Of a DNA stretch of 64,000 nt, positions 10,688 to 28,641 are shown in pieces. The stretch covers positions 1 through 64,000 of the forward strand of contig JAUWPV010000008.1 in NCBI GenBank assembly GCA_030611385.1. The letters run 5' to 3'. The position numbers and the translations under genes were made by a program. The stretch is from Bacillota bacterium. Lineage in GTDB: Bacteria > Bacillota > Dethiobacteria > DTU022. Numbering within the stretch: position 1 is the first letter of the stretch; each line of letters opens with the position of its first letter. The notes under the pieces are model-generated. The model saw only the letters and a list, made by a program, of their open reading frames with translations, was not told the DNA's origin and did no database searches.

Positions 10688-11443
10688 ATGATCAAACTAA
10701 AATCGACGCGCGAAATAAAATTGATGCGGGAAGCGGGTAAGATCGTAGGCGAAGTGCTGCAGGAGATGGAGAACTCGATCAACATCGGTATAACCACCGC
10801 TATGCTGAACAAGATCGCCGAGAAACTGATCCGCAGGTACGGGGCCGAACCGGCTTTCTTGGGTTATAATAATTATCCGGCATCGATATGCACTTCCGTC
10901 AATAACGAGGTTGTGCATGGCATACCCGGCTTGCGCAAGCTTGAAGAGGGCGATATAATCAGCATTGATGTCGGTGTACGCCTGAAGGGATATTACGGTG
11001 ATGCTGCTGCTACTTTTGCGGTAGGGAAAATATCACCGCAGGCCCGAAAATTGATTAATGTAACGAGGATGTCTCTGCAGAAAACCATTGAGGTAATGCA
11101 GGCGGGTAAGCGGCTTTCAGATCTTTCTCATGCGGTCCAGGCTTATGTTGAGCAGAATTCTTTTTCAATAGTCCGTAATTATGTCGGTCACGGTATCGGT
11201 GAAGAGATGCATGAAGAACCACAGGTGCCAAATTTTGGATTACCGGGCCATGGTCCTCTACTGCAACCGGGAATTGTGTTGGCCATTGAACCGATGGTCA
11301 ATGCCGGCACCTGGGAGGTCAAAGTGCTTGAAGACCAGTGGACTGTGGTGACCTGTGATGGTAGTCTCTCCGCTCACTTTGAGCATACGGTGGCACTAAG
11401 TGAAAACGGGCCTGAGGTGCTTACCTCTTCCAGCCTTTCTTAA
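10688..11443 (+). CDS. map: Type I methionine aminopeptidase
   Basis: IKLKSTREIKLMREAGKIVGEVL; VVHGIPG, YVGHGIGEEMHEEPQVPNF, HFEHTVAL. Confidence 0.97.
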   Translation: MIKLKSTREIKLMREAGKIVGEVLQEMENSINIGITTAMLNKIAEKLIRRYGAEPAFLGYNNYPASICTSVNNEVVHGIPGLRKLEEGDIISIDVGVRLKGYYGDAAATFAVGKISPQARKLINVTRMSLQKTIEVMQAGKRLSDLSHAVQAYVEQNSFSIVRNYVGHGIGEEMHEEPQVPNFGLPGHGPLLQPGIVLAIEPMVNAGTWEVKVLEDQWTVVTCDGSLSAHFEHTVALSENGPEVLTSSSLS

Positions 11444-21174: not shown

Positions 21175-21209
21175 AAACATGGAAAAAAATTGAATGCATA
21201 CCTAATGTC

Positions 21210-21238
21210 AAAAAACACCCGAGACATGGGTGTTTTTT
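21210..21238. terminator. Hairpin downstream of precursor 1
   Basis: Perfect 11-bp stem AAAAAACACCC / GGGTGTTTTTT, 7-nt loop. Confidence 0.75.
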
Positions 21239-21325
21239 ATGATACTAAAACCAGATATGCAAACACGAGCTATCTAATAAATGCTGTTTTCTGCCTGATG
21301 ATGGCAAGTTATGGATTTAATATTA

Positions 21326-21430
21326 TTAGACTGGCTGATCATTTACAACTATTCCCGAGACATTTCCTGCCGTCAAGCTCTTCAAATCCGCGTATTCGAC
21401 CAGTTCAGGTTTTTCATATTCCCGCTTCAA
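21326..21430 (-). CDS. Lasso-type RiPP precursor peptide 1 (absent from the ORF track)
   Basis: TTG start, 34 aa: MKREYEKPELVEYADLKSLTA|GNVSGIVVNDQPV*. YxxP leader motif, Thr at -2 of the predicted cleavage site; AGGAAG Shine-Dalgarno; near-identical leader in precursors 2 and 3. Confidence 0.82.
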   Translation of the reverse strand: MKREYEKPELVEYADLKSLTAGNVSGIVVNDQPV

Positions 21431-21482
21431 AGAATCACTTCCTATTGATAATATTTGCATTGCGCAGACTATTTATGCTTGT

Positions 21483-21511
21483 ATTGTAATCAAGGCATAG
21501 TATTGTGTCAA
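21483..21511 (-). promoter_or_regulatory. Predicted sigma-A promoter for precursor 1
   Basis: On the minus strand: TTGACA, 17-nt spacer, TACAAT. Confidence 0.6.
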
Positions 21512-21552
21512 TGGTTTGGATACAAAAAGTCAAGCAAATTCAATGATTAAGA

Positions 21553-21655
21553 GGAAGGCAATTTGAAAAGCCATGCCTGGCTCGAAGTGGCCGGCCTGAC
21601 TTATAAAGAAAATCTGGAGCATTTAAACACCTACACTCCAATACTGGAAGGATAA
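21553..21655 (+). pseudogene. Relic of lasso biosynthesis B2 protein (3' end only)
   Basis: Encodes LKSHAWLEVAGLTYKENLEHLNTYTPILEG*, nearly identical to the C-terminus of the intact B2 gene at 25630-26064 (LQSHAWFEVAGLPYKESKEHLNTYTPILEG*). Confidence 0.85.
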
Positions 21656-21659
21656 TACG

Positions 21660-22673
21660 ATGTCTCAGAAAAAAACAATTGTTAGAAATTATGCTTTCGA
21701 GGATATCTCAATTAGTGTAACAAGTGACAATTTATCCTGGGCGGACTCATTCGCTTCATATCTTTCCCTTACCCCGGGTGAAAGTTGTAATAATACCAAA
21801 TCAATTGAGCTTACTTTATCGGAAACCGGCCCGGAAGAGCTGGAACAGCTGATACCGCTTCCTGCTGAGCAGTTTTTCAAGCGCGAAAAAACCCTGCTGG
21901 TTGACCGTCCCATACCCTACCGTGTCTACGCCGGAAACGGGCAGCGCTGGGTCGATTTCAGCGGGTTCGGGCGATCCTGGATCGATAGCAATAACAAAAA
22001 GGCTCGGGTTGTGCGCCTAAACAATAATGGTATTTCGCCGGTATATGCAGATGTTATATTTGGTTATAACCCACTGCTAAGTTTATTGGATGAATATGGT
22101 TATTTTACTGTTCATGCATCCTGCGTTCAGGTCGGCGGCAGAGGAGTACTTTTTACCGGAAATAGCGGCAGAGGCAAGTCAACTGCCGCCTATGCAATGC
22201 TGAGAAGAGGACATCCGATTTTAGCCGATGACAGAATTTTGATCAAGAAAGATGCTTCATACAGAGCGTTGGCTATATCTGACGTGATCAAGTTGGAACG
22301 GGCAGCCCAGCAGGCCTTTTTCCCCGAGCTAAGGACAATAAAACCGCTGCATCAGGTAAATGATGAATTGTACTACAAGATTACTTCAGTCGGTAACCTG
22401 CCCTACCTGAACAGCACCCCGGCAAACTATCTCATGATTTTCGAAAGAACCGCTACGGCCGAAAGCAGGTTGGAGCAGGTTAACCCTTCCAGGGTGGTTG
22501 GTGAACTATTTCCTGTAACCATGGGTGATTATAGCCCAGAGGTGATGGAAAAGGATTTCAATTATTTAATGGATCTGCTGGAAAATATCCAGTGCTACCA
22601 GGTCTATTTCGGCACCGACATGAACCATTTTGCCAACTGCATCGAGAATCTTGTAACAGGCGGAGCCTGCTGA
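21660..22673 (+). CDS. HPr kinase-like P-loop kinase of lasso-type clusters (PadeK-like)
   Basis: Walker A FTGNSGRGKSTAAYAML, HPILADDRILI; adjacent to RiPP precursor and B2 relic. Confidence 0.8.
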   Translation: MSQKKTIVRNYAFEDISISVTSDNLSWADSFASYLSLTPGESCNNTKSIELTLSETGPEELEQLIPLPAEQFFKREKTLLVDRPIPYRVYAGNGQRWVDFSGFGRSWIDSNNKKARVVRLNNNGISPVYADVIFGYNPLLSLLDEYGYFTVHASCVQVGGRGVLFTGNSGRGKSTAAYAMLRRGHPILADDRILIKKDASYRALAISDVIKLERAAQQAFFPELRTIKPLHQVNDELYYKITSVGNLPYLNSTPANYLMIFERTATAESRLEQVNPSRVVGELFPVTMGDYSPEVMEKDFNYLMDLLENIQCYQVYFGTDMNHFANCIENLVTGGAC

Positions 22674-23902
22674 TGTTTAAACGAAAGCGCTCGCCTGAAA
22701 ATGAATTTATAGTGGAGTTGATCAAAACTACTCTCGGTAACGGTAATCGGGAACAACTTAGGCTGTACCTGGCCAATAGCAACCCCCAAATATTAAATAA
22801 TCAGATCAGGAGACACGGCCTTGGTGCCTATTTTTACAAAAGTGTTACGGAAAAAGATTTCCCCCTGGAAATGCCGGTTCAACTGTTCGATGCCTGGAAA
22901 CAGTACTCCGCCCAGATTGCCCTGCAGAATACCCTCATCGAACAGGAAGGGGCGGCAATCTTCAAATATCTTAATAAGCAAGACATTGAATATACTCTAC
23001 TGAAGGGGTTTGCCTATGCGGAAGAGCTTTACGGCAGCAAATGGATTCGCCCGGTCGGCGATCTCGATATCCTTATCTCCCGCGAGAATTATCCTCAAAT
23101 AAAAGAGTATCTTTTTCAAAACGGTTATACCTTCACCATCGACAGCGACAACCCGGAACTGCTGGAACAGATGGTCGAACTAAATGAAACCTTCCATAAT
23201 CAAATGCATTTCAGCCGGTCGATCGGTGTATGTGAGGTTCACATCGATGTCCACTGGGATATCGCTGACCTGATTCAGGAAGGTTCTCCTCTACGGCAGA
23301 TCTACCCCTTAAATGATTACAACTGGTTTGACCGTAGCTCAACGATCCGCCTTGGCGGTGTTGACGTTAACTGTCTGAACAGGGAGATGCATTTTATTCA
23401 CATAGTCTACCATTATGCACTCGGCCACCAGTTTGCTGGTATCAAGTGGTTTTTAGATCTCTGCCTGTTTCCAGTCAAACTGGGGCCACAGCTTGACTGG
23501 TCTTTCATCAGTGGTGTGATTTCCTGCCGGGCCTGCAGAAAACTCTTTGCCATTACCGGGCGAATGGTTGCAGATGTTGCTGGAGTACAGCATGATGGCA
23601 TAATGAAGTGGTGTGAGCTATACCCTGGTGCAATAAAAGCCCTTGAATATAGATATTATCATAGCAGGTTCTTCAGGGGTCGTACTCACAGTGGAACGTA
23701 CATCAGCTTCATCCTGCTGTCTCCCAGTATGGCCGACAAATGGCGTATGCTCTACTATATCTTTTTTAATCCGGAAGCCATCCCCGAATGGCGAATGACC
23801 GGCAAGAAAGTATTTCCGCTGCTCCAGCCGCTCTATATTATATATTGGGGTTTGCTAGAGGTAATGACAAAGGGTAAAAAAAGAAGGAAATCCGCGCTTT
23901 AA
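22673..23902 (+). CDS. Nucleotidyltransferase-fold family protein (PF14907-like)
   Basis: YTLLKGFAYAEELYGSKWIRPVGDLDILI (GxxDxDI motif), CEVHIDVHWDI; start overlaps kinase stop (TGATG). Confidence 0.8.
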   Translation: MFKRKRSPENEFIVELIKTTLGNGNREQLRLYLANSNPQILNNQIRRHGLGAYFYKSVTEKDFPLEMPVQLFDAWKQYSAQIALQNTLIEQEGAAIFKYLNKQDIEYTLLKGFAYAEELYGSKWIRPVGDLDILISRENYPQIKEYLFQNGYTFTIDSDNPELLEQMVELNETFHNQMHFSRSIGVCEVHIDVHWDIADLIQEGSPLRQIYPLNDYNWFDRSSTIRLGGVDVNCLNREMHFIHIVYHYALGHQFAGIKWFLDLCLFPVKLGPQLDWSFISGVISCRACRKLFAITGRMVADVAGVQHDGIMKWCELYPGAIKALEYRYYHSRFFRGRTHSGTYISFILLSPSMADKWRMLYYIFFNPEAIPEWRMTGKKVFPLLQPLYIIYWGLLEVMTKGKKRRKSAL

Positions 23903-24738
23903 TTACTTGTATAGTAACGCTTGCGTAAGAGGTTGATGTCCGCTTTGAGGTCATTGCGGTAATCCATGTAATGCGTGTCAAAGGGGGTTTGCACGTGCAG
24001 GCAGCGCAGGTTCCGGTTATGGACTGTAGTCAGTACACCCCGGGCACGGGTAAAGAAATCGGCATGATCGAGACGTTTAATTTTGGGATCCCAATTCACG
24101 AGCAGTAAGCGCTCGGTGCGTGCAATGTAGAAATTAGGGGCCTTATCAAAAACGGGGAAAGGACCGATATAGCTGCCGAGCGGGCGTACAGGTTTTGCGG
24201 TAGTGGGATAAAGCTTAATAGTGCTATAATCGGCTTTGTGGAAGAGCGGTAATTTCAGAACGGTGCCGCCCATGATGTCGATTTCGGGGTACTGAACCAT
24301 GAAAGCAAGGGCCGCTCGCAAGCCTGTTCTAAGATAAAAGACAAAGTCGTCATCGAGCAGTAGGGTGAATGGAGTCCCTACCTGGCGCAGACCCGCGCTT
24401 CGGCCTGCTGAGACACCGGAATCGAAGGGCAGGGTAAGCCATTCAATGCCCGGGATTAGCTTTGGTTGGCGGCTGTCATCAACAACGAGGGTATTCATGC
24501 CCGGGTAGCGCCGTTGAATACTTGCCACGAGTCGGGCTAATGTACGCGGTCGTTCGAAGGTTTTGATCAGGGCGGTTAGCTGCTCTAAACCGCCACCTTC
24601 AGGCAATATTTCAGGGCTGGAAAGGCTGTCCAGCATCTGCAATGTAGCCAGTTCGAGGTTAATAATGGTGCGGTATGCCACCCCGGCAAAGGACCGGAGT
24701 CGTGATGTCAGCAGCAACCGCTTCACGGCAGGATTCAT
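23899..24738 (-). CDS. Family 2 glycosyltransferase
   Basis: LTALIKTFERPRTLARLVASIQRRYP, VVDDS, SAGRSAGLRQVGTPFTLLLDDDFVF; start at MNPAVK with an AAGGAG site. Confidence 0.82.
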   Translation of the reverse strand: MNPAVKRLLLTSRLRSFAGVAYRTIINLELATLQMLDSLSSPEILPEGGGLEQLTALIKTFERPRTLARLVASIQRRYPGMNTLVVDDSRQPKLIPGIEWLTLPFDSGVSAGRSAGLRQVGTPFTLLLDDDFVFYLRTGLRAALAFMVQYPEIDIMGGTVLKLPLFHKADYSTIKLYPTTAKPVRPLGSYIGPFPVFDKAPNFYIARTERLLLVNWDPKIKRLDHADFFTRARGVLTTVHNRNLRCLHVQTPFDTHYMDYRNDLKADINLLRKRYYTSN

Positions 24739-24853
24739 GGAAACTCCTTTCGAAGCATTATTCATCGGGTGAGGCGAAATATATACCAATCTCCGTTGTG
24801 GTGAAGATGATTCTCCGGCAATTTATGATCTTTTGCATTGTAAATGTGCGCCT

Positions 24854-24894
24854 ATTGTTTAAAAACACCCGGATTGCGGGTGTTTTTAAACAAT
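24854..24894. terminator. Hairpin downstream of precursor 2
   Basis: Perfect 18-bp stem ATTGTTTAAAAACACCCG / CGGGTGTTTTTAAACAAT, 5-nt loop. Confidence 0.8.
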
Positions 24895-24976
24895 ACTTAA
24901 ACCAAATATGCAGAGACAAGCTATTTAGTGAATGCTGTTTTCTGCCCTATGCTGGCAAGCTAGGGATCTAATATTA

Positions 24977-25072
24977 TTAGGATCGGCCATTAATTCCAGA
25001 GCCATTTCCTGCTGTCAAGTTCTTCAAATCCGCGTACTCGACTAATTCAGGTTTTTCATATTCCCGCTTCAA
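24977..25072 (-). CDS. Lasso-type RiPP precursor peptide 2 (absent from the ORF track)
   Basis: TTG start after GGAGG; 31 aa: MKREYEKPELVEYADLKNLTA|GNGSGINGRS*. Divergent from pqqD/B2. Confidence 0.85.
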   Translation of the reverse strand: MKREYEKPELVEYADLKNLTAGNGSGINGRS

Positions 25073-25125
25073 TGAGTTGCCTCCTTTGTGATAGTATTCA
25101 TATTGCTTGGACTATTCTTAATCTT

Positions 25126-25153
25126 ATTATAATCGCGGTATCTAAAAAGTCAA
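25126..25153 (-). promoter_or_regulatory. Predicted sigma-A promoter for precursor 2
   Basis: On the minus strand: TTGACT, 16-nt spacer, TATAAT, about 50 nt upstream of the start codon. Confidence 0.65.
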
Positions 25154-25327
25154 GCAGGTTCAAATTAAATATATTTATCAAAAATCAAAGGTGTGGAAGA
25201 TCCGATGCGATGCAATTACTATCGTTAACAGCAGGAATTACTGTTAAGTATCCAGAATAACCAAGTGGAAGCCGGATCTGGAGGAAGACTCCAAAATCAA
25301 TGATTAAGAGGAAAGAGGGTTTGATTA

Positions 25328-25597
25328 ATGAATCGGATTCCTGTCCGTAATGAAGAGATCGTCTGGCGCAATCTTGACGGTGAAGCGGTTCTGCTAAACT
25401 CTCATAACGGGAAGTATTACGGCATGAATGCCGTTGGATGCTCTTTCTGGGAAAAGGTAGATGGGGCCAGGACTCTTGGGCAGATCACCGATCTTCTTTT
25501 CGAGGAATATAATGTTGAGCGCGAAATCCTTGAAAGCGATATCCAGGAGCTGGTGAACTCTCTGGAAAAAAGCGCTATCATCACCCTGAACATTTAA
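25328..25597 (+). CDS. PqqD-family peptide recognition protein (lasso B1 / RRE)
   Basis: 89 aa: EEIVWRNLDGEAVLLNSHNGKYYGMNAVGCSFWEKVDGARTLGQITDLLFEEYNVE..ILESDIQELVNSLEKSAII. Confidence 0.9.
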   Translation: MNRIPVRNEEIVWRNLDGEAVLLNSHNGKYYGMNAVGCSFWEKVDGARTLGQITDLLFEEYNVEREILESDIQELVNSLEKSAIITLNI

Positions 25598-25629
25598 TCC
25601 TGCCGTATTCAAACAGGGAGGAGAATTAC

Positions 25630-26064
25630 TTGTTTTCTCATAAAGGGTTTGTGCTGCCCCGAGATCTATCGCTCCTGATGAGCGTATTTTTTCTTTTAAT
25701 ATACTATTCTATCCTGATCGGGTTATTGCCGATTCGGAAATTACTCGACCTGATCGAACGTAACCGGTTTGGCAGCGATGAAAAGATCGGGCTTGGTCAT
25801 CCTGAAGAGGAAACTCTTGGTAAAATCTACCGAGCTGCCACTTATTTTCTCAGGCGCGTTTGGCACAGTGAGCGCCCCTGCCTGCGGCGCACCCTGATTC
25901 TCTACCGCTGGTGCTGTCGCCAGGGAATACCTTCACGGGTTATGATTGGAGTAAGGAAAGAGAAAGGCAAATTGCAAAGCCATGCCTGGTTCGAGGTGGC
26001 CGGCCTGCCTTATAAAGAAAGCAAGGAGCATTTAAACACTTACACTCCAATATTGGAAGGATAA
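25630..26064 (+). CDS. Lasso peptide biosynthesis B2 protein (transglutaminase-like leader protease)
   Basis: RPCLRRTLILYRWCCRQGIPSRVMIGVRKEKGKLQSHAWFEVAG: Cys and SHAW His motifs of B2 proteins; follows PqqD. Confidence 0.9.
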   Translation: MFSHKGFVLPRDLSLLMSVFFLLIYYSILIGLLPIRKLLDLIERNRFGSDEKIGLGHPEEETLGKIYRAATYFLRRVWHSERPCLRRTLILYRWCCRQGIPSRVMIGVRKEKGKLQSHAWFEVAGLPYKESKEHLNTYTPILEG

Positions 26065-26135
26065 TAATTTCCCGCAGTCAGGCTGTTCAAATCCCCGTAT
26101 TCGATTAGCTGAGGTTTTTCGTAATCCTGCTTCAT
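26040..26135 (-). CDS. Lasso-type RiPP precursor peptide 3 (absent from the ORF track; overlaps the B2 3' end antisense)
   Basis: ATG after GGAGGT; 31 aa: MKQDYEKPQLIEYGDLNSLTA|GNYYPSNIGV*. Leader matches precursors 1 and 2. Confidence 0.75.
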   Translation of the reverse strand: MKQDYEKPQLIEYGDLNSLTAGNYYPSNIGV

Positions 26136-26184
26136 TGATTTACCTCCAGATCTCTTATTTAAACTTCAATATTTACCTGATCTT

Positions 26185-26212
26185 ATGATAATAACTACTG
26201 AGAAAAAGTCAC
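26185..26212 (-). promoter_or_regulatory. Predicted (weak) sigma-A promoter for precursor 3
   Basis: On the minus strand: GTGACT, 16-nt spacer, TATCAT; same architecture as the precursor 2 promoter. Confidence 0.4.
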
Positions 26213-27630
26213 TAGAATATTATGGTTATTGGCAAAAGTCTCCAAATTTTACCCAGCAACAGCCGGAGAATTAGTGTTGGCGGGTTGTGCCGCAGGATAG
26301 CCAGGCGGTTTCTGCGCCGCGCTACGGCCTTGAAATATTTTTTGTGCCATTTTGTTCTTTCGGCGGGGGATACAGCAGAAAGATGATCCTGCTGATAGTA
26401 AGCGGTCACTGCTTCTTCAGTCCAGGGATTTTCTTCAAAAAACGAATTACCATATTTCTGGTAGAGCCGTGTGCCGGGATACAGCTGCAGCATGCTCAGG
26501 GCGACGGTAAAGTGGCTACCGGCCTTCTTTAGCCAGTTTAAATGTCTTTCCAGATCAGACATGGTCTCACCCTTGAAACCCTGCATCAGGTAAGCATGAG
26601 CAGCTAGGCCTGCTCTGCGGCACATCTCAAGGGCTTGCCTGTTCATACCTACGGTTGTTCCCTTATGTACGGAATCTAGTTGAGCTTGCGAAGAGGTTTC
26701 AATCCCCATTTCCAGCAGGATACACCCGGCTTTTTTAAGCAGTTTTACGATTTCCGGGTCGATGCAGCTAACTCCGGTCTGGATGGCAAACTTGATTTTG
26801 CGGTGCAGGCCGGTGGTGATTAACTTTTCACAAATGGCGGCGGCCCTTTCACGGTCAACCAAGAAGTTATTATCCAGGAAGTAGAAGCCCTTGATTGGGT
26901 ATTCGGTGATTAGCCTGCTGATCCATTCCAGCACGTATTCAGAGCTGTGCAGGCGTACGCCCTGCCCGTATGTCATTGATTCCGTGCAGAAATCACATTT
27001 TTTTAGGCAGCCTCGTGAGGTTATCAACGACATTGCCGAGAGGTGATGAGCCTTGATCACCGCTCTGCCGGGCCGGGTATAAAAATTCATGTCGAGCAGG
27101 TCAAGAGCGGGGAAAGGTAGGTTGTCAAGGTCGGTAACTTGTTCAGGAGGAGAACCGGCAATGGTATCGCCATCTTTCCACCAAACCCCGGGCAGAGTTA
27201 AAGGATCTGCTCCACCGGCCAGGCGGGTCAACGCCAGTTCGCCTTCTCCTTGGATTACCCCATTGAGTTCCGGTATTCTGCGCAGGGTTAGTTCGGGCAA
27301 TGCAGTGACATGATGTCCCCCGGCTATGATCAGGCCGGAGTGCTCACGGCGCACCAGGGTTGCACATTCGGCAGTATCGTAAATCTGCGGTGTGGTGGTG
27401 TTAAAGCCGACCAGGTCGGGCTTGAATTCCTGAAGTTTTTTCAGCATTAAAGAGTTGATCTTTTCCCTGTCGGGGCCAACGGTAGCCGCGGTAGCGAAAC
27501 GATCGAAAATTGATACTCTGTGGCCCTCTTTTTGCAAGGCGGCAGCGATAAAAGAGAGCCCCAGGGGCAGCCAGTGGGAGCCGGGCTTACGGGTCAGTTG
27601 CGGCAGGGGATAGATCAGCATTATTTTCAC
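26212..27630 (-). CDS. B12-binding domain radical SAM protein
   Basis: N-terminal LPLGLSFIAAALQKEGHRVSIFD, GGHHVTALPE; radical SAM SRGCLKKCDFCTE. Confidence 0.88.
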   Translation of the reverse strand: MKIMLIYPLPQLTRKPGSHWLPLGLSFIAAALQKEGHRVSIFDRFATAATVGPDREKINSLMLKKLQEFKPDLVGFNTTTPQIYDTAECATLVRREHSGLIIAGGHHVTALPELTLRRIPELNGVIQGEGELALTRLAGGADPLTLPGVWWKDGDTIAGSPPEQVTDLDNLPFPALDLLDMNFYTRPGRAVIKAHHLSAMSLITSRGCLKKCDFCTESMTYGQGVRLHSSEYVLEWISRLITEYPIKGFYFLDNNFLVDRERAAAICEKLITTGLHRKIKFAIQTGVSCIDPEIVKLLKKAGCILLEMGIETSSQAQLDSVHKGTTVGMNRQALEMCRRAGLAAHAYLMQGFKGETMSDLERHLNWLKKAGSHFTVALSMLQLYPGTRLYQKYGNSFFEENPWTEEAVTAYYQQDHLSAVSPAERTKWHKKYFKAVARRRNRLAILRHNPPTLILRLLLGKIWRLLPITIIF

Positions 27631-27633
27631 TGG

Positions 27634-28641
27634 TTATACCTCTGCTGTCGGATTGTTATAAGCGCCCGCCCAATCAACTGTTTGGTAACCGTTCCATGGT
27701 TCGCCGCCAACGCCGATATCACGGGCGTGACGCAGTTGGGTCAGTGAAAACGGGTCCTCACTGAAACCTTTGAGGCAGTTGTTTTTTTCTTTTAACCTAT
27801 ACAGCAGACGGTAGGCTTCAAGGTCGATTGCCAGGGGGTTTTCACCCACCAGGATCAGATTACCGGCGGCAGTTCGCCCGTAATCGGGGCCGTCCGTAAT
27901 CATGACGGTACGGGCGTCCATGACACAGAGATCCGGCTGCAGGGCCAGGTTGATCTCGGCGATTTTTTCCTGGAGATGATCCCGATGCAGGGGTATTCGT
28001 TCCAGCGGGTGCATGAAGCCCACGGAGAGCTTCAGGGCACCGGTATATGCGGCATATTGGTGGGTTTTCAGATTGGACAGAGCTACGATGCAATCTGCCT
28101 CGAGGGCAGGGCGGGGAACAGTGATGCTTTCCAGGTAACGGCCGGGTATCGGTACATTAACCCAAGGGGTTTCGTCAAAACAGATCACTTTTGCTCTGTC
28201 TTTAAGGGCACGCGCCAGTCCTGCTTTTTTAACCTGGGACCGGGTGGGTAGTAGACCAATTGTGCAGCAGTCGCCGGCTGTAACTTCTCTGGCGCCGAGG
28301 TTCAATAAAATATCTGCCAGGGTACGGAGCATTCTGGGGCAGACCGATGCGGGGTAGGGGTTGGCCGTATTCAGGTTGAATTTGATAAGCACTTTACGGC
28401 CGGTAATCAGTTCTGCATATTGCTTGCAGAAGAGGTGCTCCAGTTTTTTCGCGGCTTCGTCCGGGTTGCCGGCGGCGCCGAGGCGGTAGACCACCGGTTG
28501 AGCGGTTTTACTTCCAGACAGATGGGCCGGTATTCTTGGAGCGGAGGTCCCTTCGCTGATGATGCTACGCAGGATCCGGGGTTTAAAGAACTTTCGTTTA
28601 ACCCAGATAAGCAGGCTATAAATTTTTCCGGGTATAGTCAA
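27634..28641 (-). CDS. DUF362 domain-containing protein
   Basis: VLIKFNLNTANPYPASVCPRMLRTLADILLNLGAREVTAGD; SNLKTHQYAAYTGALKLSVGF. Confidence 0.75.
   Translation of the reverse strand: MTIPGKIYSLLIWVKRKFFKPRILRSIISEGTSAPRIPAHLSGSKTAQPVVYRLGAAGNPDEAAKKLEHLFCKQYAELITGRKVLIKFNLNTANPYPASVCPRMLRTLADILLNLGAREVTAGDCCTIGLLPTRSQVKKAGLARALKDRAKVICFDETPWVNVPIPGRYLESITVPRPALEADCIVALSNLKTHQYAAYTGALKLSVGFMHPLERIPLHRDHLQEKIAEINLALQPDLCVMDARTVMITDGPDYGRTAAGNLILVGENPLAIDLEAYRLLYRLKEKNNCLKGFSEDPFSLTQLRHARDIGVGGEPWNGYQTVDWAGAYNNPTAEV

Follow-up and report, generated by a model that had tools for sequence, protein, structure and literature searches.

Six enzyme genes and three short precursor genes lie together in the window, by which we mean the whole 64,000-nucleotide stretch of Bacillota DNA that was analysed. 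On the plus strand, an HprK-like kinase (PF07475, 21660-22673) with its catalytic residues kept is followed by an NTP_transf_5 nucleotidyltransferase-like protein (PF14907, 22673-23902, E=5.7e-43), and further along a PqqD-like RRE protein (PF05402, 25328-25597, E=4.4e-17) is followed by a B2 leader peptidase (PF13471/NF033537, 25630-26064), whose Cys84 and His118 were invariant in the alignment. A B12-binding radical SAM protein (26212-27630) and a DUF362 protein (PF04015, 27634-28641) are encoded on the minus strand and are conserved members of the cluster; a family 2 glycosyltransferase (23899-24741, minus strand) is a local neighbour that was not seen in the other clusters. The initial annotation had recognised the PqqD and B2 genes, and it had overlooked the B12-radical-SAM and DUF362 genes, the conserved core serine and the recombinant core of the third precursor. 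The HprK-related kinase A/B and SynChlorMet (ScmC/ScmD) families likewise contain HprK-like and PqqD-like proteins, and their NCBIfam models gave weak matches, all far below the curated cut-offs.

The three short minus-strand genes with lasso-type leaders proposed earlier are all present and encoded as described. Precursor p1 (21326-21430) starts with TTG and encodes the leader MKREYEKPELVEYADLKSLTA and the core GNVSGIVVNDQPV; p2 (24977-25072), also with a TTG start and divergent from the PqqD gene, encodes MKREYEKPELVEYADLKNLTA and GNGSGINGRS; p3 (26040-26135), with an ATG start and directly downstream of the radical SAM gene, encodes MKQDYEKPQLIEYGDLNSLTA and GNYYPSNIGV, its core overlapping the final B2 codons in antisense. 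Shine-Dalgarno sequences are directly visible, GGAGG before p2 and p3 and AGGA before p1. Candidate promoter-like sites were found upstream of all three on the minus strand, namely TTGACA-17-TACAAT for p1 (21483-21511), TTGACT-16-TATAAT for p2 (25126-25153) and a weak site, GTGACT-16-TATCAT, for p3 (26185-26212). The strong downstream hairpins described for the first two genes could also be located, 3' of p1 (21205-21245, minus strand, z=-4.4) and of p2 (24858-24895, minus strand, z=-5.3). As had been noted, the leaders carry YxxP and a Thr at -2 and adjoin the PqqD-like RRE and a B2 peptidase that has kept its Cys and His. All three passed the curated cut-off (19 bits) of NCBIfam NF033521 (lasso_leader_L3, "lasso RiPP family leader peptide-containing protein"), with 24.5 bits for p1, 27.0 for p2 and 28.0 for p3; this is a leader model only and is silent on the product, and at E up to 1 it matched 5 of the 14 family members. 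The leader codons of p1 and p2 differ by four synonymous changes and one nonsynonymous change (dS 0.38, dN 0.02), and the leader amino acids were kept relative to the Syntrophomonadaceae copies despite saturated synonymous sites there.

The statement that the cores differ completely did not hold. The core of p1 begins with GNVSGI and that of p2 with GNGSGI, so that they are alignable paralogues (GN-x-SGI), and p1 and p2 are duplicates. YYPSNIGV in the core of p3 reads, in frame, the opposite strand of the final B2 codons; the two genes overlap by 25 nt. Diversifying cores within the window were therefore rejected; across genomes, unlike within the window, hypervariability around a fixed core serine does hold for the predicted cores. 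Self-comparison of the window showed that 24851-25141 repeats 21201-21498 (76%), that 25958-26066 repeats 21549-21657 (89%) and that 26067-26211 repeats part of the precursor region. The segment at 21549-21657 (plus strand) is a remnant of a second B2 gene, of which the C-terminal end only is left. The simplest history would be duplication of a precursor-PqqD-B2 unit, followed in the first copy by deletion of PqqD and the greater part of B2; p3 would then, again as the simplest history, have become fused to the end of the B2 gene that stayed intact, giving a recombinant core.

Leader conservation beside PqqD and B2 genes, on which the initial annotation had staked its proposal, was found in relatives. 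The shared set comprises the PqqD-like RRE, B2, the HprK-like kinase and NTP_transf_5, to which DUF362 and the B12-radical-SAM protein are added in five of seven genomes. Among 98 genomes of the class, B2 occurs in two, the host and a Syntrophomonadaceae MAG (G068), and a B2 scan of genome contigs gave SLRC01000164.1 as its sole match, which is the same G068 contig (C211) that carries the cluster. There, PqqD-B2-HprK is followed in order by a convergent precursor (core GDDPSGFLPK), the B12-radical-SAM gene, the DUF362 gene and a second precursor (core GVELS); as in the window, a precursor lies directly downstream of the radical SAM gene. In G456, G490 and G491, which belong to a different class within the phylum, the six enzyme genes share a single strand in the order PqqD-B2-HprK-DUF362-rSAM-NTase and are accompanied by two or three divergently oriented precursors; in G456, gaps of 6-16 nt separate the genes from HprK through NTase. 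The G456 cluster lies inside a polysaccharide locus with an epimerase, two GT4, Bac_transf and Wzy_C, neighbours that are also visible in G490 and G491. Two further genomes carry partial sets: in G517, PqqD-B2-HprK comes with two precursors, and its 4.4 kb contig shows neither a DUF362 nor a radical SAM gene, so these two genes may be optional; G519 has a B2-HprK-NTase fragment. Across the cluster members, the Cys and His of B2 and the His, P-loop and first Asp of the kinase are all kept. One relative (L087) also contains a frameshift-broken precursor copy (11030-11130) between two intact precursors. Extra precursors with the same leader were seen far from the cluster in three genomes of one genus (L116, L122 and L123), beside ytxC (PF08812, shown for L122); in one of these genomes, G489, no cluster kinase was detected. 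Weak leader matches in G011, G020 and G027 were treated as chance, as no cluster genes are nearby; those of G011 and G020 are antisense to a gene that we read as selA. Viral contigs scanned with the kinase gave no match, plasmids scanned with B2 gave one weak Butyrivibrio match only, and in the defence database the only match was a weak one of the B12-radical-SAM protein to a candidate model.

With 14 intact precursors at clusters and 7 elsewhere, 21 in all, the family leader motif can be written YxxPx[LVI]xx[YF]E..T[AG], and the predicted cores, whose boundaries assume the Thr(-2) rule, are 5-13 residues long, the shortest including GVELS and GGSSD. The 14 cluster precursors share the Y, the P, the Thr(-2) and a core serine. 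This serine stands at core position 3-6 in 14/14, a result matched by none of 200,000 composition-preserving shuffles, although the shuffles overstate independence because precursor copies within a genome are related. The seven precursors outside clusters (from G489, G490 and G491) were found by a leader search made after the rule had been noticed, and all seven again have Ser at 3-6. When any residue in any four-residue window was allowed, the best of 5,000 shuffles reached 18 of the 21 cores, as against the 21 observed.

The lasso identity given to these peptides was not supported, as no lasso cyclase was found in the host genome and most cores, at 5-13 residues, have no Asp or Glu at positions 7-9. 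In the host genome (1.76 Mb, 99.4% complete), the Asn_synthase domain matched only proteins that we read, from their sequences, as GuaA and LarE-type. A lasso cyclase is also absent from G456, G490, G491 (100% complete) and G519, where the Asn_synthase matches were only short and weak; G517 has one AsnB-sized protein, on a contig other than that of the cluster, and G068 has several Asn synthases, none adjoining it. Lasso peptides share with the present cluster a leader with YxxP and Thr(-2), a discrete RRE and B2, whereas their cyclase (the Asn_synthase-type C protein) was not found here and the Asp or Glu at core 7-9 is missing from p1-p3. We sampled ten other B2 loci of the phylum and read them with their flanks. 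In eight (L033-L040), an Asn-synthase-type protein lies beside the kinase, and the readable precursors have Asp at core 8 or 9; the remaining two are G456, which belongs to the set described here, and L042, a separate cyclase-less arrangement. At about 5981-9026 of L042 (G409:C1:1911000-1928000), B2, PqqD, a SPASM radical SAM protein and an HprK-like protein occur with the precursor-like sequence MSKKIYVKPEIIEIGNLETVVLSGGRSSSRCRTWCR. The B2, HprK and PqqD trees separated the cyclase-less sequences from the lasso sequences of the same phylum, with four lasso rows only in the B2 tree and a moderate split in the PqqD tree. That the peptides are nevertheless true lassos, as first proposed, with a cyclase encoded elsewhere or replaced by another enzyme, would fit the leader family and the RRE/B2 pair, which are those of lasso systems, and an Asp does occur at position 10 of the p1 core. 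Ring-closing Asp or Glu at 7-9, however, occurs in 0/3 of p1-p3 and 4/21 of the family cores, cores of 5-9 residues are too short for a threaded 7-9 ring plus tail, and a cyclase-sized Asn synthetase is missing in five cluster-bearing genomes, one of them complete, as opposed to the sampled true lasso clusters, all of which have the cyclase. We therefore regard a lasso product as very improbable.

Known phosphopeptide systems offer closer parallels. BsfK phosphorylates core Ser3, helped by its RRE (PMC10368454); PsmN, a relative of the NTP transferases, is required for the hexose on phospho-Ser (PMC9266682); and LppK polyphosphorylates core Ser3 of a linear peptide in a system that has no cyclase (PMC13381572). 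The phosphorylated lasso peptides paeninodin, pseudomycoidin and Bsf resemble the present cluster in having an RRE, B2, an HprK-like kinase, an NTP transferase and Thr(-2) leaders, and they differ in their macrolactam cyclase and core Asp or Glu at 7-9, which most or all members of the present set lack; DUF362 or B12-radical-SAM proteins are not described in their papers (PMC9266682, PMC10368454). The linear polyphosphorylated peptides (LPP), made with a signal peptidase (Popov et al. 2026, Nat Commun, PMC13381572), are similar in their discrete PqqD-like RRE, YxxP leader, HprK-like kinase and NTP transferase without a cyclase. They also have a Ser near the core N-terminus and 1-3 precursors per cluster with a constant leader and a variable C terminus, and they come from Bacillota, often from a polysaccharide locus. 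Their leader peptidase, in contrast, is the SipW-like LppS (SpI), as opposed to B2 in the present cluster, which contains no SipW-like SpI peptidase, TIGR02228 matching on other contigs in every genome. Of the LPP leader, YxxPxVLxHQxIxFETxxS, the present leaders share the YxxP part only, and the LppA core has 45 residues compared to 5-13 here. Furthermore, DUF362 and the B12-radical-SAM protein are additions of the present cluster, and no MsbA-like or dedicated exporter was seen among the genes scanned around L090 or in the window. Near one paeninodin-type lasso cluster of our sample (L034, G190:C10:93000-110000), about 6-7 kb away, lie two precursors with an LPP-like FETxxS motif, an arrangement that has been described in the LPP paper (PMC13381572). 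From these gene contents, we place the cluster in the phosphopeptide branch of lasso-related RiPPs, as a variant with an enzyme set that seems not to have been described together before.

The two added enzymes were compared with solved structures. The sequence search with DUF362 gave no solved relative; its predicted model (mean pLDDT 89.7) matched only LarA-type nickel-pincer racemases in the PDB (18/18 at E<=0.001), albeit with TM-scores of just 0.33-0.48, and the protein has a conserved LKTH and a downstream Lys/His. Because the matches of the model are of the LarA type only, an epimerisation step is conceivable, as a lead and not a demonstration. The resemblance seen for the window protein (27634-28641) may extend to DUF362 in general. 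The best solved matches of the radical SAM profile were AprD4, OxsB, a radical SAM core protein, TokK and a Trp-C2-methyltransferase, and thus methylation or a radical rearrangement would be possible. DUF362 alone was rejected as a marker, as homologues of about 300 aa occur elsewhere in the class without neighbouring B12-radical-SAM or RiPP genes. An association of DUF362, radical SAM and a RiPP was not reported in the open-access full-text literature searched.

These proteins could belong to a separate pathway that merely adjoins the phosphopeptide genes, as the stand-alone DUF362 relatives and the short G517 contig might suggest. We consider this unlikely, given that both genes are flanked by HprK and NTase genes of the same orientation in G456, G490 and G491, tightly spaced in G456, and that a precursor is directly downstream of the radical SAM gene in the window and in L006, the G068 locus. 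It could also be asked whether function lies in the leader, either as the final product or, as with PQQ, as the source of a cofactor, the variable core being discarded, since the leader is far more conserved than the core and cores can be as short as five residues; the core serine is, however, invariant in 21/21, and the leader positions that are conserved match what an RRE and B2 would be expected to recognise (PMC10368454), which makes such a role quite improbable. The B2 remnant and the antisense core of p3 in the window, together with the frameshifted copy in L087, are what a decaying, non-functional remnant would leave, and the system may indeed be in the course of being lost from the host genome. 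Against present decay, the host enzymes are all open with their catalytic residues kept, the p1 and p2 leaders are under purifying selection, and the cluster is intact in other genera; a dead remnant thus has hardly any likelihood in our view.

We consider it likely instead, from gene content and core conservation, that this is a RiPP cluster with a lasso front end and no lasso, and that it would yield a short linear conjugate built on phosphoserine, with further decoration. PqqD would bind the leader at YxxP, the HprK-like kinase would then phosphorylate, perhaps polyphosphorylate, the core serine, B2 would cut after the residue following Thr(-2), and the nucleotidyltransferase-like enzyme would add a hexose or a nucleotide to the phospho-Ser. 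As the cluster kinases are just 15-19% identical to the paeninodin-type lasso kinases compared, we can only infer that the serine is their target. DUF362 and the B12-radical-SAM protein would make a further change, epimerisation by a LarA-like DUF362 being one specific guess. A cell-surface role is possible because the cluster of the relatives sits in a polysaccharide locus.

The findings suggest that the lasso front end of RRE, B2, kinase and NTase also serves as a stand-alone route to very short peptides, and therefore the annotation "lasso leader" does not imply a lasso. Through the cluster, a RiPP becomes associated with a B12-radical-SAM enzyme and a DUF362 protein, and the core serine stands out as a clear target residue. 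More tentatively, and with somewhat less than even confidence, we propose a separate RiPP family of B2-processed, Ser-phosphorylated mini-peptides of 5-13 residues, in which the B12-radical-SAM protein and a LarA-like DUF362 would lead to a phosphate-linked structure, possibly joined to a cell-surface polysaccharide. If this is true, DUF362 would be placed in a pathway that allows tests of its chemistry.
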